DNA from: an uncultured Clostridia bacterium
GTDB taxonomy: Bacteria > Bacillota > Clostridia > Christensenellales > Borkfalkiaceae
NCBI GenBank assembly: GCA_947624445.1
Contig: CANQKF010000003.1
Location: 62,001 to 126,000, forward strand
DNA length: 64,000 nucleotides
Direction: 5' to 3'
The notes beneath the pieces are model-generated. The model had not been told where the DNA came from, ran no database searches, and saw only the letters and a list, made by a program, of their open reading frames with translations. Below, in pieces: positions 1,864-26,364 of this stretch. Position numbers and translations under genes: made by a program. How positions within the stretch are numbered: position 1 is the stretch's first letter; each line of letters starts with the position of its first letter.

Positions 1864-3141
1864 TTATTTGATCTTGATGTTGGAATAGCTCGGGATCGTG
1901 AGCTGATTGGATCTCGCTTCGAACTGGTAGCAGCCCGAAACGGAGAGCGTCGTCCCCTCTTGGATGGTCCCCTCGGCGTAGTCCGCGGGCACCTCGACCG
2001 TGAAGGTGTAGGAAGGCGTCTCCCCGTCGATCTTCGGGGCCGTCCCGATGAACGTGAGTTTCGTGCCTTCGAGCGTCGCGGAAGTCACCGTGACGTCGCC
2101 GTGGAAGTTGGAGGTGAGTTCCTGCGCATAGAGGCTGTTCGAAGAATCGAAGTAGAGATAGTAGGAGACCTGCGATCTCCACGTCTTTTCCTCGTCGCCC
2201 TTGGAATCGGAGTCGCTGAGCGTAACGCCCGTGATCTGCCAATTCCCGTCGTGCTTTTGCAGGGTGCCGACGATGTGATACAGATCGCCGACCCGCATGT
2301 TCGCCGTGGAGGCGACGTGCCCCGCATAGAGCGTGAGGGAATACGGCCGCTTGTTCGTTTCGTCGTACTGCGCGATCGTGAACGTGATCGCCCCATTGCT
2401 TGCGGTGTACATATCCGAAACGTAGGCATAGAGCCGCACTTTGGCATTTTCGCGGAAGTTCGCGGGGTTCTCGTTGATCTCCTTCAGGGAGAGATCGATC
2501 GCCGCCGTGTTGAAGAGCGGGTCGTCGAGCTTGGAGAACAGGCGGAGCTCGATGCTGCGGGCGAACTTCTCCGCCTTCTGGAAGTAGCCGTAGTAGCCGC
2601 TCGTGGCGCTCTCCTTGTTGAAGGAGAAGCCGTTCTCGACGAGCTCGAGGTTGAGCAGTTTGAAGTCGTCCTTCGCCGTTTTATACCAGACGTAGCACAT
2701 GGGGCGGTTGCCCGAGGTATCCCGATCGGGGACGTCGCCCGTCGAAGATTCGAGGACGATCTCCGTCGCTTCGTGCAGGCGCTCGTTGGTGAAATTGCTC
2801 GCCGCCTTGCCCCACTTTTCCCAGCCCGCGGTGCTCTCGGGGGTATCGACGCCCTCATAGCGCACGGCGATGGTGCCGCCTTCCTCGAGCTTGAAGTTGG
2901 TGGTATCGCCGTCGGTCGTGTCGCCGACAAGGGTCGCCTTGCCGATCCCGCCGCCGCCCGCCGTCATCAGCTTCTTGCCCTCGTAGCTCTTGGAGAGCTT
3001 GAGCGTCTTGGTGATCTTATCGTAGTGCTCGGTGTTATCGGCGATCTTGGCGCCGCACGCCCCGAGGAAGCACCCCGCGGCAAGTGCGGCAACCGTCGCA
3101 AAAACCAAAAATAATTTCTTTGCTCTCATGGTGTTCTTCAT
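1864..3141 (-). CDS. Secreted lipoprotein thermonuclease (staphylococcal nuclease-like) with OB-fold tail
   Basis: This 425-residue protein has a lipoprotein signal peptide (lipobox LGAC, Cys about 29). Residues about 70-180 match the staphylococcal nuclease fold: DGDT at 77-80, RYEGVDTPE with Arg94 and Glu102, and GNRPMCYVWY with Arg146. These align with the Arg/Glu/Arg catalytic triad of SNase, so an active Ca-dependent nuclease cutting DNA and RNA is likely. The rest (about 190-425) looks like one or two OB-fold beta-barrels, as in YhcR-type secreted nucleases. The ATG at 3141 overlaps the stop of the binding-protein gene (TAATG), so translation is probably coupled; an alternative ATG lies four codons downstream. 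Placement behind an ABC importer links nucleic-acid cleavage to uptake. Confidence 0.85.
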   Translation of the reverse strand: MKNTMRAKKLFLVFATVAALAAGCFLGACGAKIADNTEHYDKITKTLKLSKSYEGKKLMTAGGGGIGKATLVGDTTDGDTTNFKLEEGGTIAVRYEGVDTPESTAGWEKWGKAASNFTNERLHEATEIVLESSTGDVPDRDTSGNRPMCYVWYKTAKDDFKLLNLELVENGFSFNKESATSGYYGYFQKAEKFARSIELRLFSKLDDPLFNTAAIDLSLKEINENPANFRENAKVRLYAYVSDMYTASNGAITFTIAQYDETNKRPYSLTLYAGHVASTANMRVGDLYHIVGTLQKHDGNWQITGVTLSDSDSKGDEEKTWRSQVSYYLYFDSSNSLYAQELTSNFHGDVTVTSATLEGTKLTFIGTAPKIDGETPSYTFTVEVPADYAEGTIQEGTTLSVSGCYQFEARSNQLTIPSYSNIKIK

Positions 3142-4580
3142 TACTTACCGCCGCAGGCCAAGTAGGCGTCTTTCAGCGCCTTTTCGGGCGGTTTCGTGCC
3201 GAGCATCGCGTATTGGACGACGCTCGTCATCTGCGCACGCGCCGTGGAGGAACCGACGAACGCGGGAGAGGTGAAGAAGCGATTGGTGAGCTGCGTCGCT
3301 GCCTTGGCCGCCTTGGAGACGACAAGCGACTTGGCGGGGAGTTTATCGCCCGTTTCGGGATCCTTGCCTTCGAGGAAGATCGCATAGTCCTCGTCGTCGT
3401 AGACTTCGGTGCGCATCGGGTTGTAGCCGCTCTCTTTCGCGAATTTCGCCTGGAACTTGATGTCGAGGAGTTCTTTCACGAACTGGAAGGTCATGATCTC
3501 TTTTTCGGTGGGATCCGCCACGCTGTTTCCGCCCGAGAGCATCACGAGGGAAGGACCCTGGCTGATGCAGTTTGCATAGACCGTCTCTTTATCGTCCCCG
3601 CGGTAGGAACCGGGGATGGGCGCGACTTCCGTCGTGAAGCCCGTGCCCGCCTGGTTGCTCGCGCCGCCCGAGGAACCGATGCAGAAGATGAGGCCGCCGT
3701 TCTCGGGCCCTTTGATGAAGAGGCCGCTCGTGTAGCTGTTGTATTCCTGCTGCGTGGTGAAGTAGCCTTTCTCGTGATATTCCGCGATCTCGGCGAGCCA
3801 CGCTGCGGCACCATCGTTGTTGAAGAGGTAGTGATTTGCGGGATCGGCGCTCGTATACTCGAAGCCGCGCTGCGCCGCCATGGTGATGAACCAGTTCGCC
3901 TCGCTGTCGTAGCCGAGCGGCGTGCAGGTCTCCCATCCTTTGTGCTGCCGCGCTTCCTCGCACATCTTCCAGAGCTCGTCCCATGTTTCAGGGGGATTGT
4001 CGTAGCCGAGCGCTTTGAGCGCCGTGGGATTATAATAGAGAAGCTCGGTGGACTTGACGAAGGGAAGCGTGATGAGCGCGTCCTTGGTGAGACCCGCTTC
4101 GGCGTAGCCCGTGAAGTTCTCCGCATAGCCCTCCGCAAGGTAGCCGGGGACGAAGTTTTCTACTTCCTCTTCGGTGAAGCCGATGCGACCGACCGTTTTG
4201 TCCGTGCCGCTCGGGGAGTAGCTCTCGGCGTTCGTGAGGTACTTGCTCATGTCCACTACTTTGCCGCTCTCGATGTACTGTGCGACGTGGTCGGCATAGC
4301 AGTAGGCAAGATCGGGCTGGAGATTTCCGGTAAGATCCTTGCGGACCTTATCGAGGACCTCGTCGTAGCCGCCGGGTTGGGAATGCTCCACCTTCCAGCC
4401 GGGGTACTTCGCCTCAAACGCTTCGATCGCCTTTTCCGTCACGGTCGCGAGCGCGTCGCCCTGCGAAGAATAGAACACGATGGTGTGGTCGTAATCCGTT
4501 CCGCCGCCGCACGCCGCAAGCGCAAAGCAACCCGAGAGCGCAAAGCAGCTCGCCAGCGCAATTGTGATAAGCTTCTTCAT
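3141..4580 (-). CDS. ABC importer extracellular solute-binding lipoprotein (CUT1/UgpB type)
   Basis: This 479-residue protein has a lipoprotein signal peptide (lipobox LAAC, Cys24, followed by GGG) and the layout of family 1 extracellular solute-binding proteins: an early strand (TIVFYSSQGD), EAFEAKYPGWKVE after it, and a C-terminal helix-rich part. GGAG precedes the ATG at 4580 by six bases. The family usually binds oligosaccharides or glycerol-3-phosphate. Here the gene sits between two permease genes and a secreted thermonuclease gene, so a nucleic-acid-derived ligand such as a nucleoside or sugar phosphate is possible. The ligand cannot be read from the sequence. Confidence 0.9.
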   Translation of the reverse strand: MKKLITIALASCFALSGCFALAACGGGTDYDHTIVFYSSQGDALATVTEKAIEAFEAKYPGWKVEHSQPGGYDEVLDKVRKDLTGNLQPDLAYCYADHVAQYIESGKVVDMSKYLTNAESYSPSGTDKTVGRIGFTEEEVENFVPGYLAEGYAENFTGYAEAGLTKDALITLPFVKSTELLYYNPTALKALGYDNPPETWDELWKMCEEARQHKGWETCTPLGYDSEANWFITMAAQRGFEYTSADPANHYLFNNDGAAAWLAEIAEYHEKGYFTTQQEYNSYTSGLFIKGPENGGLIFCIGSSGGASNQAGTGFTTEVAPIPGSYRGDDKETVYANCISQGPSLVMLSGGNSVADPTEKEIMTFQFVKELLDIKFQAKFAKESGYNPMRTEVYDDEDYAIFLEGKDPETGDKLPAKSLVVSKAAKAATQLTNRFFTSPAFVGSSTARAQMTSVVQYAMLGTKPPEKALKDAYLACGGK

Positions 4581-4637: not shown

Positions 4638-5753
4638 TCAACCCTTCGTGCCGCTCTTGGAGACGCCGCGCATGATGTACTTGCGGCAGAAGATGAACAG
4701 GATAAGGAGGGGCAGGCTGACCATGCAGACCGCCGCCATCTTGAGGGTATCGAGGGTCTCGGAATTGCCGTAGTTGCCGCCGTAGATCGTCCAGTTCTCG
4801 CCCCACGGGCTCGTCGGCTGGAGGCGGTCGACAAAGCCGCCCGTGACCCAGTTGGTGATGAGCTGCCACGACTGCGCGTTGACGAGACGGGGCCAGATGT
4901 AGCTGTTCCACGTGCCGATGAATTTGAGCAGCGTGATCGAGATGAGCGTGGGCGCCGTGAGCGGGATCATGACTTTGATCAGGTACCCCATATCGCTGAG
5001 CCCGTCGACCTTGGCCGCCTGGTAGAGCGAATTGGGGATCTGCATGAAGTTGTTGCGCAGCAAATAGATGTAGTAGACGCTCACGAGAAAGGGCAAAATG
5101 AGCACCGCATAGGAGTTCGTCATGCCCGCCTTCGCGACCGTGATGTAGTTGGTGACGGTGAAGAGTTCGCCGGGGATCATCATCGTCGCGAGCATGACGG
5201 CGAAGAGGAGATTCTTTCCCTTGAAGTCCATGCGCGCGAGGGCGTAGGCCGTGACGACGATGACGACGAGCCCCAAAAACGTCGACAAAAATCCTACGAC
5301 GAGCGTGTTGATAAGGATCTGCCCGAAGGAGGCGCCGCCGCGCGTGCCCGTCACCTGATGGAAGATCATCCAATAGTTCTTCCATTGGAAGGTGTGCGGG
5401 AAGAACGTGGGCACCGATTCACGGAATTCCATCTCCGTCTTGACGGAGGACATGAGCATCCAATAGAAGGGCAGAAACGCGAGCACCGCGCAGACCGTGA
5501 GGAACAGATAGACGAACACATCCTTGACGATGCGCTTCGTCCTTTCGATCTTCTTCGCCTTCTCGGCGTCGAACCCTTCGTCGCCCGCGGAGAGATCCCA
5601 CTTCCCGATCACCGCCGCGGAGACTTCCTTGCCGAAGTGCGCGATCTTGTAGCCCAAAAAGGCGATCCCGCCGATCTCGGCGATGATCAGGAGCACGCAG
5701 AGCGCGGTCAGCCAGCCGACGCCCGTGGAAGTGATCAATAATAAACCGAACAT
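4638..5753 (-). CDS. ABC importer permease (MalG/UgpE type)
   Basis: This 371-residue integral membrane protein has about seven hydrophobic segments. The EAA loop that contacts the ATPase is visible as YQAAKVDGLSDMGYLIKVM, followed by IPLTAPTL. The protein is longer than the usual 270-300 residues because an extra transmembrane segment and a charged linker (about residues 1-80) precede the standard permease core. An AGGAGGGAA ribosome binding site precedes the ATG. It pairs with the permease encoded 16 bases upstream. Confidence 0.93.
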   Translation of the reverse strand: MFGLLLITSTGVGWLTALCVLLIIAEIGGIAFLGYKIAHFGKEVSAAVIGKWDLSAGDEGFDAEKAKKIERTKRIVKDVFVYLFLTVCAVLAFLPFYWMLMSSVKTEMEFRESVPTFFPHTFQWKNYWMIFHQVTGTRGGASFGQILINTLVVGFLSTFLGLVVIVVTAYALARMDFKGKNLLFAVMLATMMIPGELFTVTNYITVAKAGMTNSYAVLILPFLVSVYYIYLLRNNFMQIPNSLYQAAKVDGLSDMGYLIKVMIPLTAPTLISITLLKFIGTWNSYIWPRLVNAQSWQLITNWVTGGFVDRLQPTSPWGENWTIYGGNYGNSETLDTLKMAAVCMVSLPLLILFIFCRKYIMRGVSKSGTKG

Positions 5754-5769: not shown

Positions 5770-6945
5770 TCAATACGTCGTGCGCTTCTTCGTGAGTTTG
5801 TTGTTGAAGAACGTGATGACCATGATGATCACGAAGAGGATCAGCGATCCCGCATAGGCATACCCCGTCTGTCCGAGCCCGATATAATTATATAGGTACC
5901 CCACCATCGTGCCCATATCGTAGTTCATGCCCATCGTCTCGCCGAAGAGGCCTACGATCGCCGAATATTGCTTCATGCCCCCCATGATGCCCGTGACGAG
6001 CAGGTAACTGATCTGGGGCATGATCATCGGCGCCGTGATGTGCCAGAGGATGGTCCAGCGGCTCGCGCCGTCGACCTTGGCGGCGTCGTAGTACTGCTTG
6101 TTGATGGACTGCATCGCGCTGAACAGGATGAGGATCTTGAAGGGCAGCCCCGACCAGATCTCATAGATGATCGCGACGATGTATTTCGCCCACGGGATGC
6201 GTAAGTCCCCGAGATACCATACGGGCGAGTTGATCCCCACCCAATCGACGGGTTTCATGCCGAACCAGCCGAGCACGATATTGACGATGCCCACCGTCTC
6301 CGTGTTGTTCACCGTGCCGATGATCTTGAAGAAGGTCGCGAACACGGCGCCCATGGCGAGCGCGTTGGTGAGATAGGGCAGGAAGAAGATCGTCTGATAC
6401 GCCTTCTGCACCCGCTTGATCGAATTGAGCGCCACGCTGATGAGAAGCGCCAATAAAGTAGAAAGGGGCACGGAAACAAAAGTCAGAAGCAACGTGTTCA
6501 CTAAACATTGAACAAAGTTGGCTCCGCCCGTTCCCGTGTCGCCCTTCAGCACACGAATGAAATTTTCGAATCCCCATCCCTTGAATTTGCCCGTCATTCC
6601 CAAATACTCCTGCTTGAAGGAGCCGATGAACGCCGCAATGATGGGGTAGAACGTAAAGACTGCCATGAGGATGAGCGCGGGAGCGACGAACAGCCAGCCG
6701 CTCTGCGCCCTGAAACCGCGGCGGAACTTCTCCCCGCGGGAAAGTTGCGGCCCTTCCGCCGCAAGCGCCTTCTTCTCCGCACGCGCTTCTTTGCTGAACC
6801 CGTGGAAGAATTCCTTGACCGCATTGAATTTGCCGGCAAACCAGCCTTTGATGCGGGCGCCGAGGTCGATAAAATACTGCACAAATTTATTGTGCTTCTT
6901 CGGCGGCTGTGCGGGCGTAGAAACGTTGTCCTTCTCTTCCATCAT
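5770..6945 (-). CDS. ABC importer permease (MalF/UgpA type)
   Basis: This 391-residue protein has a cytoplasmic, charged N-terminal region of about 90 residues (rich in Lys and Phe, e.g. KEFFHGFSKEARAEKK) and then six to seven membrane segments. The EAA loop reads YYDAAKVDGASRWTILWHI. It forms a heterodimeric channel with the next permease. Its start overlaps the stop of the ATPase gene by four bases (ATGA), which indicates coupled translation. The long N-terminal extension is unusual for the family. Confidence 0.93.
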   Translation of the reverse strand: MMEEKDNVSTPAQPPKKHNKFVQYFIDLGARIKGWFAGKFNAVKEFFHGFSKEARAEKKALAAEGPQLSRGEKFRRGFRAQSGWLFVAPALILMAVFTFYPIIAAFIGSFKQEYLGMTGKFKGWGFENFIRVLKGDTGTGGANFVQCLVNTLLLTFVSVPLSTLLALLISVALNSIKRVQKAYQTIFFLPYLTNALAMGAVFATFFKIIGTVNNTETVGIVNIVLGWFGMKPVDWVGINSPVWYLGDLRIPWAKYIVAIIYEIWSGLPFKILILFSAMQSINKQYYDAAKVDGASRWTILWHITAPMIMPQISYLLVTGIMGGMKQYSAIVGLFGETMGMNYDMGTMVGYLYNYIGLGQTGYAYAGSLILFVIIMVITFFNNKLTKKRTTY

Positions 6946-8015
6946 CTCAACCTCTCTTCCGTCTCGGCGTCAAACAGGAACAGTTTGTAAGGTTTGATCT
7001 TGAACTTCAGCTCGGCAGCGTCGGGAGGAAGGATGACGTCACTGTCGATAATGCACCGCACCGTCGGCTTTGTGGAGCTCTCGTGCACGGAGACGACGGA
7101 TTTATCCCTGCCCATGACCTCGATGTGGTCCACCTTGAGGGTGAGGACGCCCTCGGGATCGTAGATGAAGCCCTCGGGACGGATGCCGACGAAGATCGCT
7201 CTGTCCTCGAGCGGGGTCTCCGCGATGGCCTCCCCGCCGATATACACTTTGCCGCCCGAGATCTTCCCTTTGAAGATATTGATGGGGGGCGTACCGAGGA
7301 AATTGGCGACGAAGAGGTTGCTCGGGTCGTCGTAGATCTCCTGCGGGGCGCCGATCTGCTGCACGATGCCCAGCTTCATGACGACCATGATGTCGCAAAT
7401 GCTCATCGCCTCTTCCTGGTCGTGGGTAACGAACACCGTGGTGATGCCCGTCGTGCGCTGGATGCGCTTGATCTCCTCGCGCGTCTGCAGGCGCAAACGG
7501 GCGTCGAGGTTGGAGAGCGGCTCATCGAGAAGCAAGACGTTGGGCATCTTCACGAGCGCGCGGGCAATGGCGACGCGCTGCTGTTGGCCGCCCGAGAGCT
7601 CGTTGGGCTTGCGCGACATGAGATCTTCGATCTGCACGAGCCGCGCCGCGTCGAGCGCGCGGGCGTTGCCCTCTTCCCTCTTGATGCGCATGTTGTCGAG
7701 CGGGAAACGGATGTTCTGCTCCACCGTCATGTGCGGATACAGCGCATAGTTCTGAAAGACGAGCCCGACGCCGCGCTTCTCTGCGGCGAGCGTCGTCACG
7801 TCCTGCTCGTCGAAGAGGATCTTTCCCGAGGACGGGCTCTCGAGCCCGCTCAACATGAAGAGCGTGGTCGATTTCCCGCAGCCGCTCGGCCCCAAAAGAC
7901 CGACGAGCTTCCCCGAGGGGATCTCGATGTTCATGTCCTCCACGGCGTGCACCGCTTGTTCGCCCTTGTTGCGGCTCGGGAAGATCTTGGTTAAGTGCTG
8001 AATGGATATTTTCAT
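6942..8015 (-). CDS. ugpC: ABC importer ATPase (MsmX/UgpC/MalK family)
   Basis: This 357-residue ATPase has all the core motifs: Walker A GPSGCGKST (42-50), Q-loop VFQNYALYPHM, signature LSGGQQQR (140-147), Walker B VLLLDEP, switch His198 in VTHDQ, and a C-terminal TOBE-type regulatory domain (about 240-357). It energises the two permeases encoded just downstream. It is the only sugar-type importer ATPase in the window, so it may also serve the LplBC-like permeases at 49,244-51,437, as MsmX does for several importers in Bacillus; that is inference. It overlaps its neighbours on both sides by four bases. Confidence 0.95.
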   Translation of the reverse strand: MKISIQHLTKIFPSRNKGEQAVHAVEDMNIEIPSGKLVGLLGPSGCGKSTTLFMLSGLESPSSGKILFDEQDVTTLAAEKRGVGLVFQNYALYPHMTVEQNIRFPLDNMRIKREEGNARALDAARLVQIEDLMSRKPNELSGGQQQRVAIARALVKMPNVLLLDEPLSNLDARLRLQTREEIKRIQRTTGITTVFVTHDQEEAMSICDIMVVMKLGIVQQIGAPQEIYDDPSNLFVANFLGTPPINIFKGKISGGKVYIGGEAIAETPLEDRAIFVGIRPEGFIYDPEGVLTLKVDHIEVMGRDKSVVSVHESSTKPTVRCIIDSDVILPPDAAELKFKIKPYKLFLFDAETEERLR

Positions 8016-9316
8016 AAGCGTTCGCCCTCGCGCTTTACAATTTTTATGATCGTTTCCATCCGATACCCTTCGACGACCAGGTTCTCGGGCAGATCGACGG
8101 GCGCATATGCCCGATCGATATCGATGAAAGGATTGACGTAGGTGCCTGCCTTCATGCGCAGCGTCGCGGTGTAGTTCTCTTCTTTCAGGAGGACGAATGC
8201 GAATTCCTCGCCCCCGTTCGTATACTTGATCTCCACGCTTCCGCCGAATTCGGGGACCTCCCCGAGGTCGAGCCTAAGCGTGACCATGCTGTAATAATCG
8301 TGCCCGAACACTTCGTCTTTGGGGGGCCCCTTCTTCTCTTTGTGCGGGATCCTGCACACCTTGAAGAGGAACCACTTGAAGAAGCGGATGATGTAGTGCG
8401 TGCCCAGGAGGAAGTCGGCGATGATATAGATCGCAACAAAGTAGAGGAGGACGAAGGGGATCGCCTTGTTGTTCGCGCGGCGGCTCACCTCGCGGGACGC
8501 CTCCCTGTATTCCTCCGCCTCCGCCGTGAGAGAACAATCCTTGCGCTGTCCGAGCGCTTCCTTCACGGAGGCGATGTAATCGTTGCGTTGCCCGTTGAGA
8601 TCCGCGAGCTCCTCTTGGGTGACGCCCTCCGCGGCGCACTGCGCGACCAGCTCGTTGTAGCCCTCGATATCGCCGAAGCAATCGAAGAACGCGCTTTCGA
8701 AGTTTAATGCCGCCGCGGCTTCCGCGGAAAAGACGCGCGCCCCCGTGCGGTCGGCAAAGGAGAGTTTTGTGAAGGCGGAGACGTCGCCCGCGCGGATCTC
8801 CAAGAGGACGAATCCGTTCTCGGTGAAGGTGGAGATCCCGTCCTTCCTGCCGTCCCCGTCCGCGTCGTAATCGAGGAGAGGCAGCCGCACTTCTTCGCCC
8901 TGTTCCGTCGTGACATACAGCGCCGCCGCATTGCTCTCTTTCGAGAACACGTCGTAGCGGTCTCCGACGCCGTAGAGGTACCCCGTATAGCATTTATAGA
9001 GCATGCCGTGGGTGAGCCCCGACGTTTCGCCGTCCTCCGCATCGCTGCGGTCGTAGACCTCCGTCACCGTCTCATAAAGCACCACGCCCCCGCCCGTTTC
9101 GAAGGTCTGCGCGAGCACGGGCTCCCGCAAAAATCCGATGGGCTCGGCGAGCGTGAGCGCCTTCAGAAGTTCGCCCTTTTCGAGGGAACTTGCGACGACT
9201 TCGCCCGAGACGGTAAACGCCGCGAAATACCCCGGAAGGGTCATCGCGAACACGACGCCGATGCCGAACGTGAAGATAAAATAGACGACAGCGGCAAAGA
9301 TCCTGCTCTTCTTCAT
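8012..9316 (-). CDS. Unknown two-pass membrane protein of the ABC operon
   Basis: I do not recognise this 434-residue protein. It has an N-terminal membrane segment (about 8-30), a long probably external domain (about 35-280) and a second membrane segment (about 288-310), then a basic stretch and a cytoplasmic beta-rich tail of about 110 residues. The external part contains DYDADGDGRKDG, which looks like a dockerin/EF-hand-type calcium loop. Its stop overlaps the ATPase start by four bases, and its own start overlaps the stop of the upstream small gene by four bases. Such tight coupling suggests it works with the importer, perhaps as a tethered accessory or sensor. No function can be assigned. 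Confidence 0.8.
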   Translation of the reverse strand: MKKSRIFAAVVYFIFTFGIGVVFAMTLPGYFAAFTVSGEVVASSLEKGELLKALTLAEPIGFLREPVLAQTFETGGGVVLYETVTEVYDRSDAEDGETSGLTHGMLYKCYTGYLYGVGDRYDVFSKESNAAALYVTTEQGEEVRLPLLDYDADGDGRKDGISTFTENGFVLLEIRAGDVSAFTKLSFADRTGARVFSAEAAAALNFESAFFDCFGDIEGYNELVAQCAAEGVTQEELADLNGQRNDYIASVKEALGQRKDCSLTAEAEEYREASREVSRRANNKAIPFVLLYFVAIYIIADFLLGTHYIIRFFKWFLFKVCRIPHKEKKGPPKDEVFGHDYYSMVTLRLDLGEVPEFGGSVEIKYTNGGEEFAFVLLKEENYTATLRMKAGTYVNPFIDIDRAYAPVDLPENLVVEGYRMETIIKIVKREGERL

Positions 9317-9609
9317 TCTTCACCGCGCCCGGAGGGCTTGTCCGCTTCGGGCAATGCGGTCTCTTCGGCGGGCGCCTCGGGCGTCGCGGCGGCCTGCGCC
9401 GTCGCGGTGGACCCGTCGGTCCGCCGTATATTGGATTGGAACGCCGCTTCCCTCTTTTTGAGGTTTTCGCGCTGTTCGCGGTATTGTTTTTTATTCAGGA
9501 CGGGGATCAAAAAATAAACGCCGACGCAGAGCACGGCGAGTACTCCGAGAACGATGAAAAAGATAATGTCCGTTGAACTGAGTGGATTGAGTGCCAAGAA
9601 ATCAAGCAT
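9313..9609 (-). CDS. Small single-pass membrane protein, first gene of the ABC operon
   Basis: This 98-residue protein is chosen to start at the ATG at 9609 because GAGAGGAAG lies just upstream; longer readings lack such a site. It has one clear transmembrane segment (about 14-36), then a charged Lys/Arg/Gln coiled-coil-like stretch (KKQYREQRENLKKREAAF) and an Ala/Thr/Glu-rich, probably disordered tail. It is the first gene after a near-perfect promoter and overlaps the next gene by four bases. I do not recognise a family. Confidence 0.75.
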   Translation of the reverse strand: MLDFLALNPLSSTDIIFFIVLGVLAVLCVGVYFLIPVLNKKQYREQRENLKKREAAFQSNIRRTDGSTATAQAAATPEAPAEETALPEADKPSGRGEE

Positions 9610-9702
9610 AGCTTCCTCTCTTCCTCCGCATTCGCGACCAAGCGGAACGTTTTTCGCGAGAAACGCGCATTCCTTTCCCCGCAAAGGACTTCTTCTGCGA
9701 AG

Positions 9703-9731
9703 ATTATAACATATCTGCGGGAAAGTGTCAA
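9703..9731 (-). promoter_or_regulatory. SigA-type promoter of the ABC importer/nuclease operon
   Basis: On the minus strand TTGACA (9731-9726) is separated by exactly 17 bases from TATAAT (9708-9703). Both hexamers match the consensus perfectly. The first gene starts at 9609, which leaves a leader of about 85-90 bases. Confidence 0.9.
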
Positions 9732-9831: not shown

Positions 9832-10968
9832 TCAACGCTTTTTGCGGAAGAGCGCCACCGCCGCCACCGTGATGCAGAGCACGAGGCATGCGCCGCCGAC
9901 GACGCAACCGATCACAATGCCGCGCCAATCGGCGGGCGTGAGCCCCTCGGAGGGCTCCCCCTCCCCGGGTTCGGGCTCGGGATCGGGTTCGGGTTCAGGC
10001 TCGGGATCGGGCTCGGGTTCGGGTTCGGGCTCGGGTTCGGGCTCGGGCTCGGGCTCGGGCTCGGGTTCGGGCTCGGGTTCGGGCTCGGGTTCGGACGCCC
10101 AGATCAGATCCACATATTCGGGATGATCGATGAAGGGGTTGCGGTTGTGCTGGATCTTGAACACTTCCTCGTTGCGCGTCGTCTCGATCGTATCCACGGG
10201 GTCGAGCTCGTTCCATTCGACCAGGAGTTGGATCGCCGCCGCCTCCGAGGAAGCCGAAACAACATTGGTAAAGTGCAGCGTGCCGAAATAGTTCGCCTTC
10301 TGACCGTCGGTGTTGCCGTTCGTCGTGCCGTGCACGTTGGAATAGGTATTATAATGGGTGTACACGTAGAAAAGAATGCGCGCGACGTCCCCCTTCACGT
10401 TGTCGAGGGGTTCAAACACGCCGCCCGCCCGATATCCGCCGAGCTGCGAATCTGTGCCGCTCGTCGTCTTGGAATAGACTGCGCTACCGTTTGTGACTTC
10501 GCCGTATTTATCGTTCTCGCGTGCGCTGTTCATCTTTACTTCCGTAGGGCGGATATGGTGAAGATCTGCTCCGCCGCCGACCGTATTGCTCCCCTTCCAA
10601 AGATTGTTGGAACAAGCCTTGGGCCAAACATGCTCGCGGTTCCATCTGCCCGCGTCGCTACCCGTCTTTGTGTATTCGATGATCGTCTCGTGCGTGTAAA
10701 ATTCGATGATGCTCTTCTCGCCCCCCTCCGCATAATCGGTGATATGACCGTAATCCCTGCAATCCGCATAGGTACTATAATAGGTGTGCGTGGTGGTGAT
10801 GAGGTCGTGGAGCTGGCCGAGCAGTTCGTCGCCGCCCTCCACCGTGATCGGCGCATAGTAATCCTCCGCCGCACGTGCCGCTGTGCCGTACGCCGAAACG
10901 CCCGCGCCCGAAACGAAAAGCAGCGCCGAGATCGCGATCGAGATCAGTGTTTTTCGGATTTTATACAT
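9832..10968 (-). CDS. endA: Surface-tethered endonuclease I
   Basis: This 378-residue protein has a signal peptide, an endonuclease I (EndA/NucM, His-Me finger) domain at about 35-285 with NREHVWP (110-116) and DLHHIRP (135-141), an (EP/DP)n spacer at about 292-334, a transmembrane segment at about 345-370 and a basic RKKR end. The enzyme cuts extracellular double-stranded DNA nonspecifically. The spacer and C-terminal anchor should hold it outside the cell on a stalk, whereas most EndA enzymes are free. The ATG at 10968 lies inside the end of tdk (ATGTATAA overlap), so translation is probably coupled. It is the last gene of the deoxynucleoside operon and supplies the pathway's entry step. 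No strong terminator follows it. Confidence 0.93.
9966..10094 (-). repeat. Hexanucleotide repeat encoding the Glu-Pro spacer of EndA
   Basis: About twenty degenerate GGGCTC/GGGTTC hexamers (plus-strand reading) run in tandem. On the minus strand they encode alternating Glu-Pro or Asp-Pro. A six-base unit can expand or contract without a frameshift, so the stalk length of EndA could vary between strains. Confidence 0.9.
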
Positions 10969-11584
10969 ATACGTCCCCCTGTTTTTCCTGTGTATTCTTG
11001 GGCCGTTGTTCCTGTTCGGCGCGCATTTTCAGCCAGCATTTGCGGCACATGGCGACGTACCTGTCGTTCCCGCCGAGGAGCACCTGCGAGCCCTCCGTCA
11101 CGATCCTGCCGTTGTCGTCGAGCCGCGCGTTGACCGTCGCTTTGGCGCCGCACGTGCACACCGACTTGATCTCGCCGATGGATTCGGCGATCTCGAAGAG
11201 CCGCTTGCTCCCCGGGAAGAGGTGGGTCGTGAAGTCGGTCGAGAGCCCGAAGCACAGCACGGGGATGTTCCGCTCGATGACGATCGCGGCGAGCTCATCC
11301 ACCTGCTCGGGCGTGAGAAATTGGCATTCGTCGACGATGATGACGTCGCAATCGGCGTACTTTTCGAGGTACAGCGCCCGCAGATCCTCCTCCGCGGAGA
11401 CGGCGATGGCGTCCTGCATGAGCCCGATCCGCGACTTCACGACGGTCGCGCCGTCGCGCGTATCGACCGCGGGTTTGAGCAGGAGCACCTTCATGTTGCG
11501 CTCTTCATAGTTGAATTTCGTGATGAGCGCCTGCGCCGTCTTGGAACAGCCCATCGCGCCGAATTTGAAGTATAATTTTGCCAT
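10961..11584 (-). CDS. tdk: Thymidine kinase (type II)
   Basis: This 207-residue enzyme phosphorylates thymidine (and deoxyuridine) with ATP. The ATG at 11584 is chosen because GAGGGAG lies just upstream. The P-loop reads GAMGCSKT (9-16), with Ser in place of the second Gly, a variant I recall from clostridial enzymes. The Walker B-like motif is DECQF (85-89). A zinc site is formed by CTC (143, 145) and CRKC (180, 183), which fits type II kinases although the first pair is CxC. It lies 19 bases after the pyrimidine phosphorylase gene and lets salvaged thymidine be used for DNA synthesis rather than degraded. Confidence 0.94.
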
Positions 11585-11603
11585 ATGGCTCCCTCTTTTG
11601 CGG

Positions 11604-12905
11604 TCATTCGATGATATCGTATACGAGCGGTTCCGCCTCGGGTTTCTCTTCGGAGAACTGCGTCGCGCCGAGGAAGCGCGCCTCTGCCGCGGCGAAGAGA
11701 TCGGGGGAATCCGCATACATGGTGGCGATCTTTTCCCCCTGTTGCACGAAGTCGCCCGTCTTTTTCCCGAGCATGATGCCCGCGGAATAATCGATCGCGT
11801 CCTCCGCCGTATTGCGTCCCGCGCCGAGGGCGAGGCTCGCGAGCCCGTATGCCTCGGTATCCACGTGCGCAATGTAGCCCGTGTGCGGACTCAAGACGTC
11901 GCGGGTGTACTTTGCCCGCGGGAAGCGCGCGGGATCCGCGATGCACTCCGCGTCGCCGCCCTGCGCCGCGACCGTCTCCATGAGCTTTTTGAGGGCGCTG
12001 CCGTCCTCGATTGCCCGCTTTGCGCGCTCTTCGCACACCTCGGGCGCCCCCATGCCCGCGAGCGAGAGCATGCGCCCCGCAAGCGTCAGGCACACCGCGG
12101 TGAGATCGGCGGGACCGCGGCCCTTGAGCGTCTCGACCGCTTCGATGACTTCGAGCGCATTGCCGATGGCATTGCCGAGGGGCATATCCATGTTTGTGAT
12201 GAGGGCGACCATCTTTTTGCCCGCGTTTTTGCCGATGTCCACCATGAGGCGGGCGAGGGCGCGGCTATCCTCCACCGTTTTCATGAAGGAACCGCTGCCC
12301 GTCTTGACGTCGAGCACGATGCAGTCGTCGTCGGCGGCGAGCTTCTTGCCCATGATGCTCGAGGCGATGAGGGGCATGCTGTCGACGGTCGCCGTGACGT
12401 CGCGCAGCGCGTAGAGCTTCTTATCGGCGGGGGCGAACTGCTTGCTCTGCCCCACGATCGTCAGCCCGATCTCGTTGACCTGACGGATAAATTCTTCGTC
12501 GGAGAGCGTCGTGCGGAAGCCCGCGATGGCCTCGAGCTTATCGACGGTCCCGCCCGTATGCCCGAGCCCCCTGCCGCTCATCTTGGCGACCTTCACCCCG
12601 AAGGAAGCGACGATCGGCGCGACGACGAGGCTGGTTTTATCGCCCACACCCCCCGTCGAATGCTTGTCGACACGGACGCCGCGGATGGAGGAAAAATCCA
12701 CCCGTTCGCCCGAATCGCGCACGGCAAAGGTGAGATCGCACGTCTCGCGCACGGTCATGCCGCGGAACCAGATCGCCATGCAGAGCGCGGAGATCTGGTA
12801 ATCGGGAATGCTGCCGTCGGTGACGCCGCGGATGAAGAAGCCGATCTCCTCCGTGGTGAGCTCGCCGCCGTCCCGTTTTTTCTTGATGATGTCGTACATG
12901 CGCAT
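11604..12905 (-). CDS. pdp: Pyrimidine-nucleoside (thymidine) phosphorylase
   Basis: This 433-residue enzyme splits thymidine, deoxyuridine and probably uridine with phosphate to base plus (deoxy)ribose-1-phosphate. The start is the ATG at 12905 behind AAGGAGGAG at proper spacing. Family motifs are DKHSTGGVGDKTSL (80-93), MSGRGLGHTGGT soon after, and VKTGSGSFMKT further on for phosphate binding. Length and motifs match the Pdp/DeoA family; whether it prefers thymidine only or both pyrimidines cannot be told from the sequence. It lies between the 5'-nucleotidase and tdk genes in the deo-type operon. Confidence 0.95.
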   Translation of the reverse strand: MRMYDIIKKKRDGGELTTEEIGFFIRGVTDGSIPDYQISALCMAIWFRGMTVRETCDLTFAVRDSGERVDFSSIRGVRVDKHSTGGVGDKTSLVVAPIVASFGVKVAKMSGRGLGHTGGTVDKLEAIAGFRTTLSDEEFIRQVNEIGLTIVGQSKQFAPADKKLYALRDVTATVDSMPLIASSIMGKKLAADDDCIVLDVKTGSGSFMKTVEDSRALARLMVDIGKNAGKKMVALITNMDMPLGNAIGNALEVIEAVETLKGRGPADLTAVCLTLAGRMLSLAGMGAPEVCEERAKRAIEDGSALKKLMETVAAQGGDAECIADPARFPRAKYTRDVLSPHTGYIAHVDTEAYGLASLALGAGRNTAEDAIDYSAGIMLGKKTGDFVQQGEKIATMYADSPDLFAAAEARFLGATQFSEEKPEAEPLVYDIIE

Positions 12906-12954
12906 CGTGCGCTCCTCCTTGGAAAAATTATAAAACGCGGGGACCTGTGGTCGA

Positions 12955-14421
12955 TCAAACGGCTCTTCCGCCGCCGCGGATGAAGTCCGCAAGGAGATCC
13001 CGCGCATAGACGGAGCCGCTCAAACGGGCGACTTCCGTGATGTTGTTCCAACGATATGTGGACGTGTAGCTGTCGACGATGATATAATAATCCTTGTCGC
13101 TTTCGACCTCGGCGGCGCCGATCGTGGAAAAGACGTGGTAATTGCTCTTGTTGGCGAGGAAATTCTGTTTGAGACTGCTGCCCTTGATCTTGCCGAGCAC
13201 AATGGCGTTGTCGAAGGGGAGCAGGGAGAAAACATCGGCATACGTCACCTTTCCTTTCGCGAGATCGTAGGGGCTGCGCGTCTTGAGATAGCCGCCGCCG
13301 AGCACGATCTCATATTCCCCGCCCCACGCTTCCACGCCCTTGCGGTAGTAGAGTTCGGCGAGTTTCTCTTCGAGCGCGTTGTCGTCCCACGTCGCGGAAT
13401 TGACGCCGAGCACCGTCTCATAGGGATCCGCGTCCGCAAAGTACTCCGCATAGAGCTGCGCCACGACGGGATCGTCCCTCAGGCTCGCGCGCGCGTATTC
13501 CGCGGGGGCGAGCAGCTTGGGCGCGACCTCGAATTTCTTCGTATCCGTGTGGAAAACGACGTCCGCATAGCTCACGCCGCGGTTCTCGCCGCCGCCCTGC
13601 AGATGGTAGACGCCGTATTCATCCTGCAAGATGTAGCTCTGGTGGGTGTGCGCCTCGAACACGAGGTCAACGTAGCCGTCGGAGAGCGACGTATCGTAAT
13701 ACGTGAGGTCCCGATCGGTGACCTGCGTCACCTTGGAAGAAGAAAAGCCCGAGCCGCCCTCGTGGATGGAGTAGACGATGAGATCGCACCCCTCCTCCTG
13801 CCGCAGGCGGGTCGCCTCCGCCTTGACGAGCGCGGTGAGTTCGCTGCCCGACGCAAAATACAGCCCCGTCTGGAACTCGCCCGAGATGGAGCCGAGGCAA
13901 TCCCCGATCGCGCCGATGATCCCCACCTTCACCCCCTTCCGCTCCACGACGGTCGAGGGCTTGCAGTAGGCGGGCGTCACGCCGCCGTCGGTCACGTTGA
14001 TCGCGAGGAAGGGGAATTCGGCGAGCGCGCTGTTGGGCCCGAGCACCGCCGCCCCCCAATCGTATTCGTGGTTGCCGAGGGTCATGGCGCAGAAGCCGAC
14101 GTCGTTCATCCACTTCGTCATGAGCGCGCCGCGGGTCGTGGAGGATTCCACCGTCCCTTGCCACATGTCGCCCGAGGAGAGCAGGATCTCTTCATGGGCG
14201 CTCTCGTCGTAGAGGAGCTTCATATACGTCGTGAATTCGTCGACGCCGGGCTGCTCCTCCGTGTCCATGAATTTGCCGTGCAGGTCGTTGACGGCGTAGA
14301 AGGCGAGCTGAACGACGTTCTCGCCATAGTTCGTCTCCCCGCCGCCGCAGCCGCAGAGAGAGGCGAGACCGAGGGTCGCCGCCAAAAGGAAAATGGAAGC
14401 TCTATATGCGAATTTTTTCAT
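12955..14421 (-). CDS. Lipoprotein 5'-nucleotidase/metallophosphatase (UshA family)
   Basis: This 488-residue protein has a lipoprotein signal peptide (LCGC, Cys about 25) and the two-domain layout of secreted 5'-nucleotidases. The metal-binding motifs are NDLHG (45-49), GDMWQG (84-89), GNHEYDWG (116-123) and a later EAHTHQS. The C-terminal domain contains GGYLKTRSPYDLAKG and ITYADVFSLLPF-like substrate-binding sequence. Family members remove phosphate from extracellular nucleotides, giving nucleosides for uptake. No good ribosome binding site precedes the ATG. Its place between cdd and pdp supports a role in nucleotide scavenging; 2',3'-cyclic phosphodiesterase activity is also possible. Confidence 0.92.
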   Translation of the reverse strand: MKKFAYRASIFLLAATLGLASLCGCGGGETNYGENVVQLAFYAVNDLHGKFMDTEEQPGVDEFTTYMKLLYDESAHEEILLSSGDMWQGTVESSTTRGALMTKWMNDVGFCAMTLGNHEYDWGAAVLGPNSALAEFPFLAINVTDGGVTPAYCKPSTVVERKGVKVGIIGAIGDCLGSISGEFQTGLYFASGSELTALVKAEATRLRQEEGCDLIVYSIHEGGSGFSSSKVTQVTDRDLTYYDTSLSDGYVDLVFEAHTHQSYILQDEYGVYHLQGGGENRGVSYADVVFHTDTKKFEVAPKLLAPAEYARASLRDDPVVAQLYAEYFADADPYETVLGVNSATWDDNALEEKLAELYYRKGVEAWGGEYEIVLGGGYLKTRSPYDLAKGKVTYADVFSLLPFDNAIVLGKIKGSSLKQNFLANKSNYHVFSTIGAAEVESDKDYYIIVDSYTSTYRWNNITEVARLSGSVYARDLLADFIRGGGRAV

Positions 14422-14442
14422 ACGTGGGTGCGGATATGCCGA

Positions 14443-14847
14443 TCAAAAGAGATCGCTCTCCGTGAAAGAATAGGGCAAGAGTTCGCCGAGGGAATGGACG
14501 GAAAGGCGCGCGGAATTTCCGAGGATCACTTTGAAGTCCTCCTTGCAGAATTCGGCCATCACCTGCCTGCAAACGCCGCATGGGGCGCAGAAGGGCGCGA
14601 CCGTCCCCCGCTTTCCGCCGACGATGGCGATGGCTTCGAAGTCCCGCTCGCCCTCGCTCACGGCCTTGAAGAACGCCGTGCGCTCGGCACAGTTCGTGGG
14701 CGTGTAGGCGGCGTTCTCGATGTTGCAGCCCGTGTAGACGTTGCCGTCCTTGGTCAGAAGCGCCGCGCCCACGCAGAAGTGCGAATAGGGAGAATAGGAG
14801 CGCTCCCGCGCCTGCTCCGCGAGCACCATGAGTTCGCGGTCCGTCAT
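14443..14847 (-). CDS. cdd: Cytidine deaminase
   Basis: This 134-residue enzyme deaminates cytidine and deoxycytidine to (deoxy)uridine, feeding the pyrimidine phosphorylase. Zinc ligands are Cys53 in NCAER and Cys90/Cys93 in PCGVC; Glu55 is the proton shuttle. Length is typical for the homotetrameric class. The ATG at 14847 follows GGGAGGTG and overlaps the stop of deoB by four bases, so the earlier in-frame extension is not needed. Confidence 0.96.
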   Translation of the reverse strand: MTDRELMVLAEQARERSYSPYSHFCVGAALLTKDGNVYTGCNIENAAYTPTNCAERTAFFKAVSEGERDFEAIAIVGGKRGTVAPFCAPCGVCRQVMAEFCKEDFKVILGNSARLSVHSLGELLPYSFTESDLF

Positions 14848-16007
14848 GCCTTCACCTCCCGCCAGAAGCTCGTTCCCGCCGTCGACGCCTGCGGCACGCC
14901 GAAGAAGTCGAGCACGGTCGCCGAGATGTCCGCAAAGCTCGCGCGCGTCCCGAGATCCACGCCCCGCTTCACGCCCTTTCCGCAGATCAGCATGGGCGTG
15001 TATTCGCGGGAGTGGTCCGTCGAAGGCGTCGCGGGGTCGCAGCCGTGGTCGGCGGTGATGAGCAGCACGTCCTCCTCCCGCATGTCCGCAAGGAACGAGG
15101 TGAGGAAGCCGTCGAACTCGGTCGCGGCGGCGGCGTAGCCCGCAACGTCGTTGCGGTGCCCGTATTTCATGTCGAAGTCGACGAGGTTGACGAAGCACAG
15201 CCCCGAGAAGTCCTGCCCCTGCAGCGATTTCGTGACCTGCATGCCGTGGGCGTTGGAGGTCGTCCTGTGGCTCTCGGAGATGCCCTGCCCCGCGAAGATA
15301 TCGAAGATCTTGCCGACCGAGACCGTCGCATAGCCGGCCTGTCGGAGGAGGTCGAGCATGGTTTCGGCGGGGGGCGTGAGGGAATAATCGTGCCTGTTCG
15401 CCGTGCGCGTGAAGGGATATTCCCCCGTGAAGGGACGGGCGATCACCCTGCCCACGTTGTGCGGCGGTTTGAGCATTTCGCGCGCGATCTCGCAGTAGCG
15501 GTAGAGCTCGGGCACGGGAACGACGTCCTCATGCGCCGCGATCTGAAAGACGCTGTCCGCCGAGGTGTAGACGATGAGCGCGCCCGTCTCGACGTGCTCC
15601 CTTCCGTAGTCCTTGATGACCTCTGTGCCCGAATAGGGCTTGTTGCAGATGACCTTGCGCCCCGTGCGCTTCTCGAATTCCGCGATGAGCTCTTCGGGGA
15701 AGCCATCGGGATAGGTGGGCAGGGGATCGGGCGAGACGATGCCCGCGATCTCCCAGTGCCCGATCGTCGTATCCTTGCCCATGGACTTCTCTGCCATGCG
15801 CGAATAACTTGCCACAGGGTCCTTCGTTCCGCCGCCCACGCCCGCGATGTTAAAGAGCCCGAGCCGTTCGAGATTGGGGCAACGGAAATTGGGGTGATTG
15901 CGGATGGCGCCGAGGGTGTTGCTGCCTTCGTCGTGCCACTTGTAAGCGTCGGGAAGTTCCCCCACGCCGAAGCTGTCGAGTACGATCAAAAAGAATCTTT
16001 TTGCCAT
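14844..16007 (-). CDS. deoB: Phosphopentomutase
   Basis: This 387-residue alkaline-phosphatase-superfamily enzyme converts (deoxy)ribose-1-phosphate to the 5-phosphate. Metal and phosphorylation motifs include LDSFGVGELPDA near the N-terminus, the phospho-acceptor Thr region GKDTTIGHWEI, and ITADHGCDP with SREYTPM near the end. GGAG precedes the ATG. It links the two nucleoside phosphorylases to deoC. Confidence 0.97.
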   Translation of the reverse strand: MAKRFFLIVLDSFGVGELPDAYKWHDEGSNTLGAIRNHPNFRCPNLERLGLFNIAGVGGGTKDPVASYSRMAEKSMGKDTTIGHWEIAGIVSPDPLPTYPDGFPEELIAEFEKRTGRKVICNKPYSGTEVIKDYGREHVETGALIVYTSADSVFQIAAHEDVVPVPELYRYCEIAREMLKPPHNVGRVIARPFTGEYPFTRTANRHDYSLTPPAETMLDLLRQAGYATVSVGKIFDIFAGQGISESHRTTSNAHGMQVTKSLQGQDFSGLCFVNLVDFDMKYGHRNDVAGYAAAATEFDGFLTSFLADMREEDVLLITADHGCDPATPSTDHSREYTPMLICGKGVKRGVDLGTRASFADISATVLDFFGVPQASTAGTSFWREVKA

Positions 16008-16040
16008 GGTTTCTCCGTCTGCGGGCGGCCCCGCGTCGAT

Positions 16041-16760
16041 TCAGGCGAGTTCGAGCGCGATCTTCATCATCGCGGTGAAGCTCGTCTCCCGCTCCTCGGC
16101 GGTCGTGTTCTCTTCGGGATGGAGGAAGCTATCGCTCACGGTGCAGATGCACAGCGCCTTTTTGCCCGCGCGGGCGGCGTTGCAGTAGAGCGCCGCGCTC
16201 TCCATTTCCACGCCGAGGACCCCCATTTTCGCCCACGTCATGCCGCTTGCCGCGTCGTCGTAGAACATATCCGAGGAAAAGATGTTGCCCACTTTGTAGT
16301 GCACGCCCGCCTTCTCGCAGAGCTCGGCGGCGCGCTTCAAGAGCCCGAAGTCCGCGATGGGGCAGAACGTCCCGGGCAAGTTGTATTGCATGGCGTAGTT
16401 GCCGTTGGTGCAAGCGCCCTGCGCGAGGATGATGTCCCGCACATGCAGGTCCTCCGCAAAGCTGCCGCAGGAGCCCACGCGGATGATGTTTTCCACGCCG
16501 TAGAAGTTGAAGAGCTCATAGGAATAGATGCCGATCGCGGGCTGCCCCATGCCCGAAGCCATCACCGAGACGCGCTTGCCGCGATAGGTCCCCGTATAGC
16601 CGTTGACGCCGCGCACGTTGTTGACGAGCACGGGATCTTCGAGGAAATGTTCGGCGATGAACTTGGAGCGCAGCGGGTCGCCCGGCATGAGCACGGTCGG
16701 GGCAAAATCGCCGTATTTTGCGGAAATGTGGGGGGTCGGTATGTTTTTCTTTTCACTCAT
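16041..16760 (-). CDS. deoD: Purine-nucleoside phosphorylase, DeoD type
   Basis: This 239-residue enzyme phosphorolyses purine (deoxy)nucleosides. It has the DeoD layout: [20 protein letters not shown] at the N-terminus, GSCGSF for phosphate binding, and VEMESAALY for ribose binding. An internal [10 protein letters not shown] matches the hexameric class. The start at 16760 overlaps the stop of deoC (ATGA) and has GGAGGAG upstream. Confidence 0.97.
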
Positions 16761-17416
16761 AGCAGGTGCTCCTCCTTTACGATCTTCACGATGCGGGAAG
16801 TCCCCAAGCGGTCCGCGCCGAGCGCGACGAACTTCTCCGCGTCCTGCACGGAGGAAATGCCCCCCGCCGCCTTGATCTTCACGTCCTTCCCGACGTGCGC
16901 CTTGAACAGGGCGACGTCCTCGCGGGTCGCGCCCGCCTTGGAGAAGCCCGTCGACGTCTTGATGAAGTCCGCTTTCGCCGCCGTCACGATCTCGCACATC
17001 TTGATCTTCTCCTCCTCGGTGAGCAGGCAGGTCTCGATGATGACTTTGAGGATCTTCCCGCCGCACGCCGCCTTCACGGCCTCGATCTCGGCTTGCAGCT
17101 TCTCATAGCGCTTCGCCTTGAGGTCGCCGATGTTGATGACCATATCGATCTCGTCGGCGCCGTTTGCCACCGCCTCCGCGGTCTCGAACACCTTCACCGC
17201 CTCCGTGTTGTAGCCGTTCGGGAAGCCGATGACGGTGCAGATGGGCAACCTGCCGCCCGCATAGCGCTTCGCCTCCGCCACATAGCAGGGCGGGATGCAG
17301 ACCGAGGCGGTGCCGTAGCGGATGCCGTCGTCGATGAGGGCGCGGATGTCCTCCCACGTCGCCGTAACGGAGAGCTGTGTGTGGTCGCAACGCTTTACGA
17401 TTTCTTTGATGTCCAT
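16757..17416 (-). CDS. deoC: Deoxyribose-phosphate aldolase
   Basis: This 219-residue class I aldolase splits deoxyribose-5-phosphate to glyceraldehyde-3-phosphate and acetaldehyde. The Schiff-base Lys153 lies in FIKTSTGF, and the DMVINIG strand carries the catalytic Asp. The ATG at 17416 is preferred over one four codons upstream because GGAG precedes it at seven bases. It is the first gene of the eight-gene operon and the last step of the catabolic route. Confidence 0.96.
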
Positions 17417-17470
17417 AGGTAACTCCATTTTTGATATTGGTCGAGCAGAGTGGATATAGATTCCGTCACT

Positions 17471-17499
17471 ATTATATACGAAACCAAACTGTTTGTCAA
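17471..17499 (-). promoter_or_regulatory. SigA-type promoter of the deoC-deoD-deoB-cdd-nucleotidase-pdp-tdk-endA operon
   Basis: On the minus strand TTGACA (17499-17494) is followed after exactly 17 bases by TATAAT (17476-17471), a perfect consensus. The leader to deoC is about 50 bases. I see no clear palindromic operator, so a DeoR-like control site cannot be named. Confidence 0.9.
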
Positions 17500-26326: not shown

Positions 26327-26332
26327 CAGCGA

Positions 26333-26361
26333 ATCGGCGGGGTCCCCCCGCCGATCTTTTT
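26333..26361 (+). terminator. Rho-independent terminator after the large lipoprotein gene
   Basis: A perfect ten-base-pair stem (ATCGGCGGGG with its complement), three-base loop and a run of five T. It ends four bases before the start of pnuC. Confidence 0.93.
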
Positions 26362-26364
26362 GCC

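Follow-up and report, generated by a model that had tools for sequence, protein, structure and literature searches.

A deo operon with added nuclease and nucleotidase genes adjoins an importer-nuclease unit in uncultured gut Clostridia: a probable extracellular nucleic-acid feeding system

The window analyzed here is a stretch of 64,000 nucleotides (contig CANQKF010000003.1, positions 62,001 to 126,000, assembly GCA_947624445.1) from an uncultured Clostridia bacterium of the Borkfalkiaceae, whose assembly comprises 1.84 Mb in 68 contigs and is 93.9% complete. Its minus strand carries the gene string deoC-deoD-deoB-cdd-NT5-pdp-tdk-endA (17416-9832), in which the genes of a deo operon are joined by those for a putative surface nucleotidase (NT5) and a putative surface nuclease (EndA). 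Downstream on the same strand lies a second unit (9684-1864), which encodes two membrane proteins, then an ABC importer (ATPase, two permeases and solute-binding lipoprotein) and finally a lipoprotein carrying a staphylococcal nuclease (SNase) domain. The initial annotation had described the eight genes alone as a complete system for the use of extracellular DNA; the interval it gave, 9832..17499, is real, but the functional neighbourhood runs on to position 1864.

All eight genes that it named are present in this interval on the minus strand, six of them scoring above the cut-offs of NCBIfam models and EndA and NT5 above those of Pfam. The predicted products are a deoxyribose-phosphate aldolase (deoC, 16757..17416; TIGR00126, 235 bits, cut-off 117; start at 17416 behind GGAG, alternative start at 17428), a purine-nucleoside phosphorylase (deoD, 16041..16760; NF004489, 329 bits, cut-off 230), a phosphopentomutase (deoB, 14844..16007; NF003766, 507 bits, cut-off 256), a cytidine deaminase (cdd, 14443..14847; NF004064, 150 bits, cut-off 74), a lipoprotein of the UshA/CpdB-like nucleotidase superfamily (NT5, 12955..14421; PF02872 and PF00149), a pyrimidine-nucleoside phosphorylase (pdp, 11604..12905; NF004747, 577 bits, cut-off 559), a thymidine kinase (tdk, 10961..11584; NF003300, 231 bits, cut-off 195) and an Endonuclease I family nuclease (endA, 9832..10968; PF04231, E 5e-38). 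From deoC to endA, the intergenic gaps measure -4, 33, -4, 21, 49, 19, and -8 nt. Since nucleoside phosphorylases, a phosphopentomutase and a deoxyribose-phosphate aldolase are encoded in a single string (gaps -8 to 49 nt), the locus has the gene content of a deo operon.

A promoter box TTGACA-17-TATAAT with a 12/12 match stands ahead of deoC (17471..17499, minus strand), and this box together with the tight gaps makes a single transcript for the eight genes likely. The box is not distinctive on its own: the same 11 kb also contains an 11/12 box (18471-18443) ahead of a DUF3737 gene and a 12/12 box (9703..9731, minus strand), with TG preceding the second hexamer, ahead of the importer-plus-SNase unit. 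The initial annotation had assumed one near-perfect promoter; the box is indeed perfect, but a 10/12 match ahead of pdp (12927..12954, minus strand) may be an internal promoter. RNA families and tRNA genes were not found across the window.

EndA scores 131.6 bits against PF04231 (cut-off 25) and 34.5 vs the 372 bits required by the NCBIfam deoxyribonuclease I model. Its residues N110, R111, E112, H113, and N147 are invariant among 19 relatives, and the Pfam match and conservation of the E-H and N residues place it in the Endonuclease I family; we take E112, H113, and N147 to be catalytic. The protein consists of a signal peptide, the nuclease domain, a PE-repeat linker and a C-terminal membrane segment. 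Linker and membrane tail (window 9832-10100) recur in unrelated open reading frames (ORFs) of the family, 17 genomes match the EndA query by the tail region alone, and this part of the protein is possibly a common surface anchor. Because 10/45 EndA rows are lipoprotein-like and 16/45 have a C-terminal hydrophobic segment, tethering seems to be achieved by differing routes. According to a simple N-terminus rule, and with second copies counted among the rows, exported-looking N-termini are found in 35/45 EndA, 101/105 NT5, 32/33 SNase and 51/52 solute-binding protein rows; among the presumed intracellular enzymes, such signals occur in 2/35 DeoB, 0/36 Pdp, 0/29 Tdk, 0/35 DeoC and 0/36 Cdd rows.

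The two NT5 domains pass Pfam marginally (Metallophos 24.4 bits, cut-off 21.5; 5_nucleotid_C 34.4 bits, cut-off 23.6), and the solved structure closest to the protein is the 5'-nucleotidase UshA (1ush, E 7.7e-15). All curated NCBIfam scores are under their cut-offs; since this includes the UshA model (NF007109, 97 bits vs cut-off 600), we do not file NT5 as UshA itself. Residues D46, H48, D85, N117, H220, H258, and H260 are invariant across 16 relatives and presumably bind the metals. At the metal site NT5 carries H-x-H where, as we assume, UshA has H-x-Q, and because of this replacement a 3'-nucleotidase or cyclic phosphodiesterase activity is conceivable. The specificity matters because SNase products carry 3'-phosphates and Endonuclease I products 5'-phosphates.

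The second unit begins with a small membrane protein (9313..9684; no Pfam match, alike ORFs in 12 loci including the window) and a larger one (8012..9316; no Pfam match, alike ORFs in 15 loci including the window), all genes of the unit lying on the minus strand. These are followed by an ABC ATPase (6942..8015; PF00005), permease A (5770..6945; PF00528), permease B (4638..5753; PF00528) and a solute-binding lipoprotein (3141..4580; PF13416, E 2.8e-33). Their top NCBIfam matches are UgpC (348 bits, cut-off 432), UgpA (50 bits, cut-off 335), UgpE (109 bits, cut-off 297) and UgpB (36 bits, cut-off 411), respectively; all four subunits are under the curated cut-offs and the importer is Ugp-like only. 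The closest solved structures to the profile of the binding protein are a sugar-binding protein (7c0x) and UgpB (6x84), and the binding protein of one relative (L135) matches the P68 surface lipoprotein model weakly (E 1.2e-7, under cut-off). The last gene (1864..3141) encodes a lipoprotein that passes PF00565 (E 3.8e-9, 37.4 bits, cut-off 21) and aligns to staphylococcal nuclease 1syb across DGDT, R, DTPE, and R (E 8.3e-5), which places it, with its active-site residues aligned, in the staphylococcal nuclease family. An SNase lipoprotein gene next to an ABC importer is the arrangement of the mycoplasma type.

Other importer candidates were also considered. BMP (PF02608) and CNT (PF07662) proteins were rejected, being found in 0/9 genomes with operon genes, the source included; of 14 reference genomes, six were positive for BMP and four for CNT, and among the 15 genomes searched a lone BMP occurs in G111, a genome without the operon.

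Wherever deoC, deoD, deoB, cdd, NT5, pdp, and endA occur in one locus, they lie on the same strand and in the same order (20/20 loci). These full loci represent 17 distinct genomes, source included, as L077, L079, and L088 duplicate contigs already counted; two of the 17 (L086 and L154) are devoid of tdk. Further copies are incomplete through contig ends (G009, G047), and in G042 the string is found on two contigs (deoC-deoD-deoB-cdd and NT5-pdp-tdk-endA). Since the order is kept in 17 genomes, chance is excluded, and the conserved linkage of endA and the nucleotidase gene with deoCDB anticipated by the initial annotation does occur in relatives. A box of 11-12/12 with 17-nt spacing stands ahead of deoC in 20/20 fused-operon loci scored (12/12 in L033). 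A perfect box is not universal, because unfused deo operons in relatives carry boxes scoring 8 to 12 of 12. No box of at least 10 was found ahead of pdp in scored loci other than the window, and within the eight genes boxes of at least 11 stand only before endA of L086 and L154 (12/12 and 11/12), the two full loci without tdk. In 15 loci a small lipoprotein gene follows endA and precedes the importer cassette (e.g., L077 15977-16570); it was not found in the window, and the two members tested gave no Pfam match.

Other genera of the family carry deoC-deoD-deoB-cdd-pdp with variable tdk, and NT5 and endA at other sites in the genome. In an NT5 tree, built with a quick method and SH-aLRT support only, 23/23 deo-linked rows cluster together (SH-aLRT 98), and L086 and the rows L153 and L154 from another family (f32) are nested inside this cluster (SH-aLRT 100). 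Twelve loci were left out as duplicates, fragments or for doubtful independence (L042, L077, L079, L082, L088, L090, L114, L123, L137, L142, L143, L148), as were rows below 400 bits or 350 aa, including L170-L172. From this grouping and nesting we infer a single entry of NT5 and endA into a pre-existing deo operon, followed by transfer of the fused operon between families. The endA gene adjoins NT5 in other arrangements as well (G132, G262, L149, L150, L119).

The order of the importer cassette is constant (ATPase-permease-permease-binding protein-SNase). Among the 57 cassette loci (52 after removal of second copies), SNase is seen in 38, and the remaining 19 end at most 239 bases past the last cassette gene seen. 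The cassette lies behind endA in 20/20 full-operon loci, divergently next to deoC in G080, G095, and G114, and next to NT5 in L096, L114, L130, and L135; where included in the tree, the NT5 rows of such other-linkage loci fall on separate branches. On the 10-kb contig of one further locus (L095), NT5 and an SNase relative occur without an importer. A sister Ugp-like group (permease B approximately 340-373 bits; L183-L188, L193, L198, L199) showed no SNase in the fetched stretches. In the phylum set of 295 genomes, permease B exceeds 450 bits in the source genome only; five others score 264-340 bits, and no SNase was present in the stretches around them, one of which is just 3.7 kb long. In 44 loci, the window not among them, the cassette is preceded by a gene for an RDD-family membrane protein (e.g., L064 6553-7314), confirmed by Pfam for two members.

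Genes for the processing of nucleotides and oligonucleotides occur next to NT5 or the cassette in some relatives. A deoxynucleotidase (NT5C)-guanylate kinase fusion was identified by Pfam in L135 (8301-9410), L155 (7944-9056) and L119 (12028-13176) and by likeness in L130 (7193-8308); it adjoins NT5 and, in 3/4 loci, also the importer cassette. Single genomes have DHH-DHHA1 proteins (L118, L160, two in L161), SurE (L161) or a 5'-3' exonuclease (L118, L156) near NT5 or the cassette. The fusion, SurE and DHH-DHHA1 neighbours agree with a nucleic-acid substrate for the importer. Nucleosides are most likely imported, with a UgpE-type nucleoside importer of Mycoplasma bovis as a precedent, and nucleotides or oligonucleotides are possible. 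Whether the importer represents a distinct Ugp-like ABC class of walled Clostridia that is coupled to SNase and takes up nucleosides together with nucleotides or short oligonucleotides appears doubtful to us.

To follow the parts where they are not linked, we counted them across genomes. In the family set (121 genomes), 36 EndA query matches were reduced to the 19 with the nuclease domain by excluding the 17 tail-only matches, and 26 NT5 matches to 18 (E <1e-60) by excluding eight weak ones. All 18 NT5 genomes are among the 19 EndA genomes, and DeoB is present in 19/19 of the latter. Within the own genus, 7 of 13 genomes have EndA, NT5, DeoB, and the importer, and the other six (G027, G055, G075, G092, G105, G111) have none of them. 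In the order set (297 genomes), EndA occurs in 38 and NT5 in 29 genomes, and 29/29 NT5 genomes carry EndA (Fisher 1.2e-32 by genome, 2.6e-9 when collapsed to 125 genera); DeoB is found in 28/29 NT5 genomes vs 141/297 overall. Permease B orthologues, defined by at least 464 bits (next score 373), are present in 31/297 genomes of the order, 28 of which have EndA and 26 NT5, and in 17/121 genomes of the family, with EndA in 17/17 and NT5 in 16/17; the two family genomes with NT5 and no permease B are 61% and 84% complete assemblies. Permease B thus tracks EndA and NT5 even where the genes are scattered. Among 22 unfused cassette genomes of the order set, the cassette lies within 10 kb of NT5 or EndA in six (G132, G201, G236, G262, G323, G379), with a binomial probability of 1.9e-5 under a simple model that takes no account of relatedness or contig breaks, or 0.0025 when four arrangements are counted. 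Relatives that align to NT5 are mostly recorded as uncultured Clostridia or Clostridiales/Oscillospiraceae of animal-gut origin (rabbit, ruminant, other herbivores).

The genes present, their packing, the promoter boxes, the conserved order and the co-occurrence, all directly established, lead us to propose, with a probability of about 0.7, that the two adjoining transcription units work as a single system for feeding on extracellular nucleic acid. Outside the cell, the SNase lipoprotein and a tethered EndA would cut DNA, and probably RNA, and NT5 would dephosphorylate the nucleotides set free. The products, nucleosides most likely, would enter through the Ugp-like importer. In the cell, Cdd would deaminate cytidines, Pdp and DeoD would split nucleosides using phosphate, and DeoB would shift the phosphate, after which DeoC would yield glyceraldehyde-3-phosphate and acetaldehyde, feeding glycolysis; Tdk would divert part of the thymidine to salvage. 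These activities are predicted from the protein families, and joint expression is likewise a prediction. The system is probably larger than eight genes, the importer and second nuclease lying just beyond position 9832.

The initial annotation had the eight genes cover every step from DNA to central metabolism, which is an overstatement: no importer is among them, and the step from oligonucleotides to mononucleotides is missing as well, since an endonuclease and a 5'-nucleotidase alone do not make this conversion. Both importer and oligonucleotide cleavage are probably encoded by the next unit. Its restriction to DNA is probably too narrow; DNA is a predicted target, but RNA is a likely one too, because Endonuclease I and SNase family nucleases often cleave RNA as well and Pdp, DeoD, and DeoB also act on ribonucleosides. 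Its notion of an extracellular nutrient system with joint function is upheld by the conserved order, the unlinked co-occurrence of EndA, NT5, and importer and the joint absence of these three and DeoB from 6/13 congeners.

Several observations weigh against the proposed feeding system. The three parts are unlinked in most relatives, 16/22 unfused cassette genomes showing neither NT5 nor EndA within 10 kb of the cassette; nine EndA genomes of the order set are without NT5, and three genomes (G337, G347, G368) carry the cassette without EndA or NT5. Kinship inflates the genome-level statistics, one genus contributing 15/38 EndA genomes, and the genomes compared are all metagenome assemblies, as far as record titles indicate. 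At the protein level, the strict SNase active-site pattern is satisfied by only 24/33 proteins, NT5 is a match at superfamily level, and the curated families closest to the importer are named for glycerol-3-phosphate and sugar.

The same parts might primarily serve salvage. A gut bacterium with a small genome of 1.84 Mb could gather bases, thymidine or phosphate in this way, with DeoC just clearing surplus deoxyribose; the tdk gene within the operon fits this possibility, as does the use of comparable parts for precursors by mycoplasmas in the accessible text of PMC9740415 and PMC12115388. We regard it as a real possibility, albeit one we do not favour: deoC and deoB are among the leading genes of the operon and retained in 20/20 full loci, which suggests that the sugar is used. 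Nucleic acid would then be a source of carbon and energy and not only of precursors or phosphate.

It is also conceivable that only EndA and NT5 belong with the deo genes and that the importer unit transports sugar or glycerol phosphate, being a mere neighbour with its own promoter box. The highest scores of all four subunits to Ugp models, the solved structures closest to the binding protein and the three genomes with the unit and without EndA or NT5 would be in line with this, yet we consider it unlikely. The cassette closes with a secreted SNase in 38/57 loci, the other 19 being cut by the edge, whereas SNase is missing from the stretches of the sister Ugp-like group, and permease B tracks EndA and NT5 order-wide and adjoins deo or NT5 genes in several arrangements.

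That the secreted enzymes are transcribed separately from the deo genes, leaving no single operon, is quite unlikely in our view. The 10/12 box ahead of pdp, the boxes ahead of endA in L086 and L154 and the split operon of G042 could be read this way, but gaps in the window do not exceed 49 nt and no box of at least 11 lies inside the eight genes at the remaining scored loci; joint function would be possible despite several transcripts. Finally, EndA and SNase might act mainly in defence, in dispersing biofilms or in taking up DNA for transformation, roles reported in the accessible literature for secreted nucleases of other bacteria, with the deo linkage recycling debris, but this is very improbable, given that coupling to NT5, phosphorylases, and importer fits feeding better.

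If the feeding system is real, little-studied gut Clostridia would consume DNA from shed cells, food and lysed microbes by a polymer-to-glycolysis route encoded in approximately 16 kb. It would also provide a substrate for Ugp-like importers that curated models would name glycerol-3-phosphate transporters, and the importer-then-SNase order would be a simple metagenome marker for nucleic-acid feeders.

Two further features of the window lie apart from this locus. An exported-looking ORF of 1220 aa without Pfam match (22664-27060, plus strand) is located directly ahead of a PnuC-family gene (NMN_transporter, PF04973), whose product could be a vitamin permease or possibly a nucleoside permease. 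On the minus strand, residues 510-557 of a 705-aa ORF (51521-53638) make up a rubredoxin domain, which is unusual in such a context.

A literature search that covered titles and abstract openings, with most subscription papers outside its scope, retrieved no description of a deo operon with secreted nuclease and nucleotidase or of an order-wide co-occurrence of EndA, NT5, and importer. Known deo operons include deoCABD of E. coli and dra-nupC-pdp and drm-pupG of B. subtilis. The present string shares with such operons a catabolic core of deoC, deoD, deoB, cdd, and pdp, but adds secreted nuclease, nucleotidase, and tdk, and no nupC-type importer was found in the nine genomes searched. Mycoplasmas have a deoDAC operon, according to the accessible part of PMC13274396. 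The UgpBAEC glycerol-3-phosphate importers are the top curated match for all four window subunits; in contrast to them, the window subunits are under the cut-offs and an SNase gene follows the binding protein.

In mycoplasmas, the SNase lipoprotein genes Mhp379, MAG_5040, MHO_0730, and Mpn133 adjoin ABC transporter operons and the SNases cleave RNA too, as stated in accessible passages of PMC9740415; the neighbourhood also appears in those of the review PMC12115388, and a reference title in these reviews (PMC9740415/PMC12115388) calls MslA of Mycoplasma gallisepticum a polynucleotide-binding lipoprotein. As in our locus, a surface SNase lipoprotein stands next to an ABC importer, thought there to supply nucleic-acid precursors. 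In those accounts, however, the nuclease lies upstream of the transporter and deo genes are not mentioned, whereas here it ends the transporter unit and deo genes, NT5, and EndA adjoin; the transporters are likened by description, not by sequence homology. The accessible text of PMC12838404 reports that MBOVPG45_0747-0751 of Mycoplasma bovis, a UgpE-type ABC operon annotated for glycerol, acts in nucleoside uptake and in extracellular-DNA use. Its order of membrane protein, ATPase, permease, UgpE-type permease, and lipoprotein resembles ours, but that text names no SNase gene in the operon, and this likeness, too, is one of description and not of sequence.

In Izemoplasmatales, DNA feeding has been demonstrated by isotope probing and culture, as summarized in the accessible text of PMC8289736 and, for strain zrk13, PMC8397711; in our Clostridia it is predicted from genes. 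The DNA-degradation loci of Izemoplasmatales likewise combine ABC transporters with secreted nucleases and phosphohydrolases. These accounts name phosphate transporters and further nucleases as parts of the loci, but no deo genes, whereas the two units described here, compared by description, show nucleases, a nucleotidase, and an ABC importer and no phosphate transporter. The nearest known kinds are the DNA-degradation loci of Izemoplasmatales and the nuclease-ABC operons of mycoplasmas.

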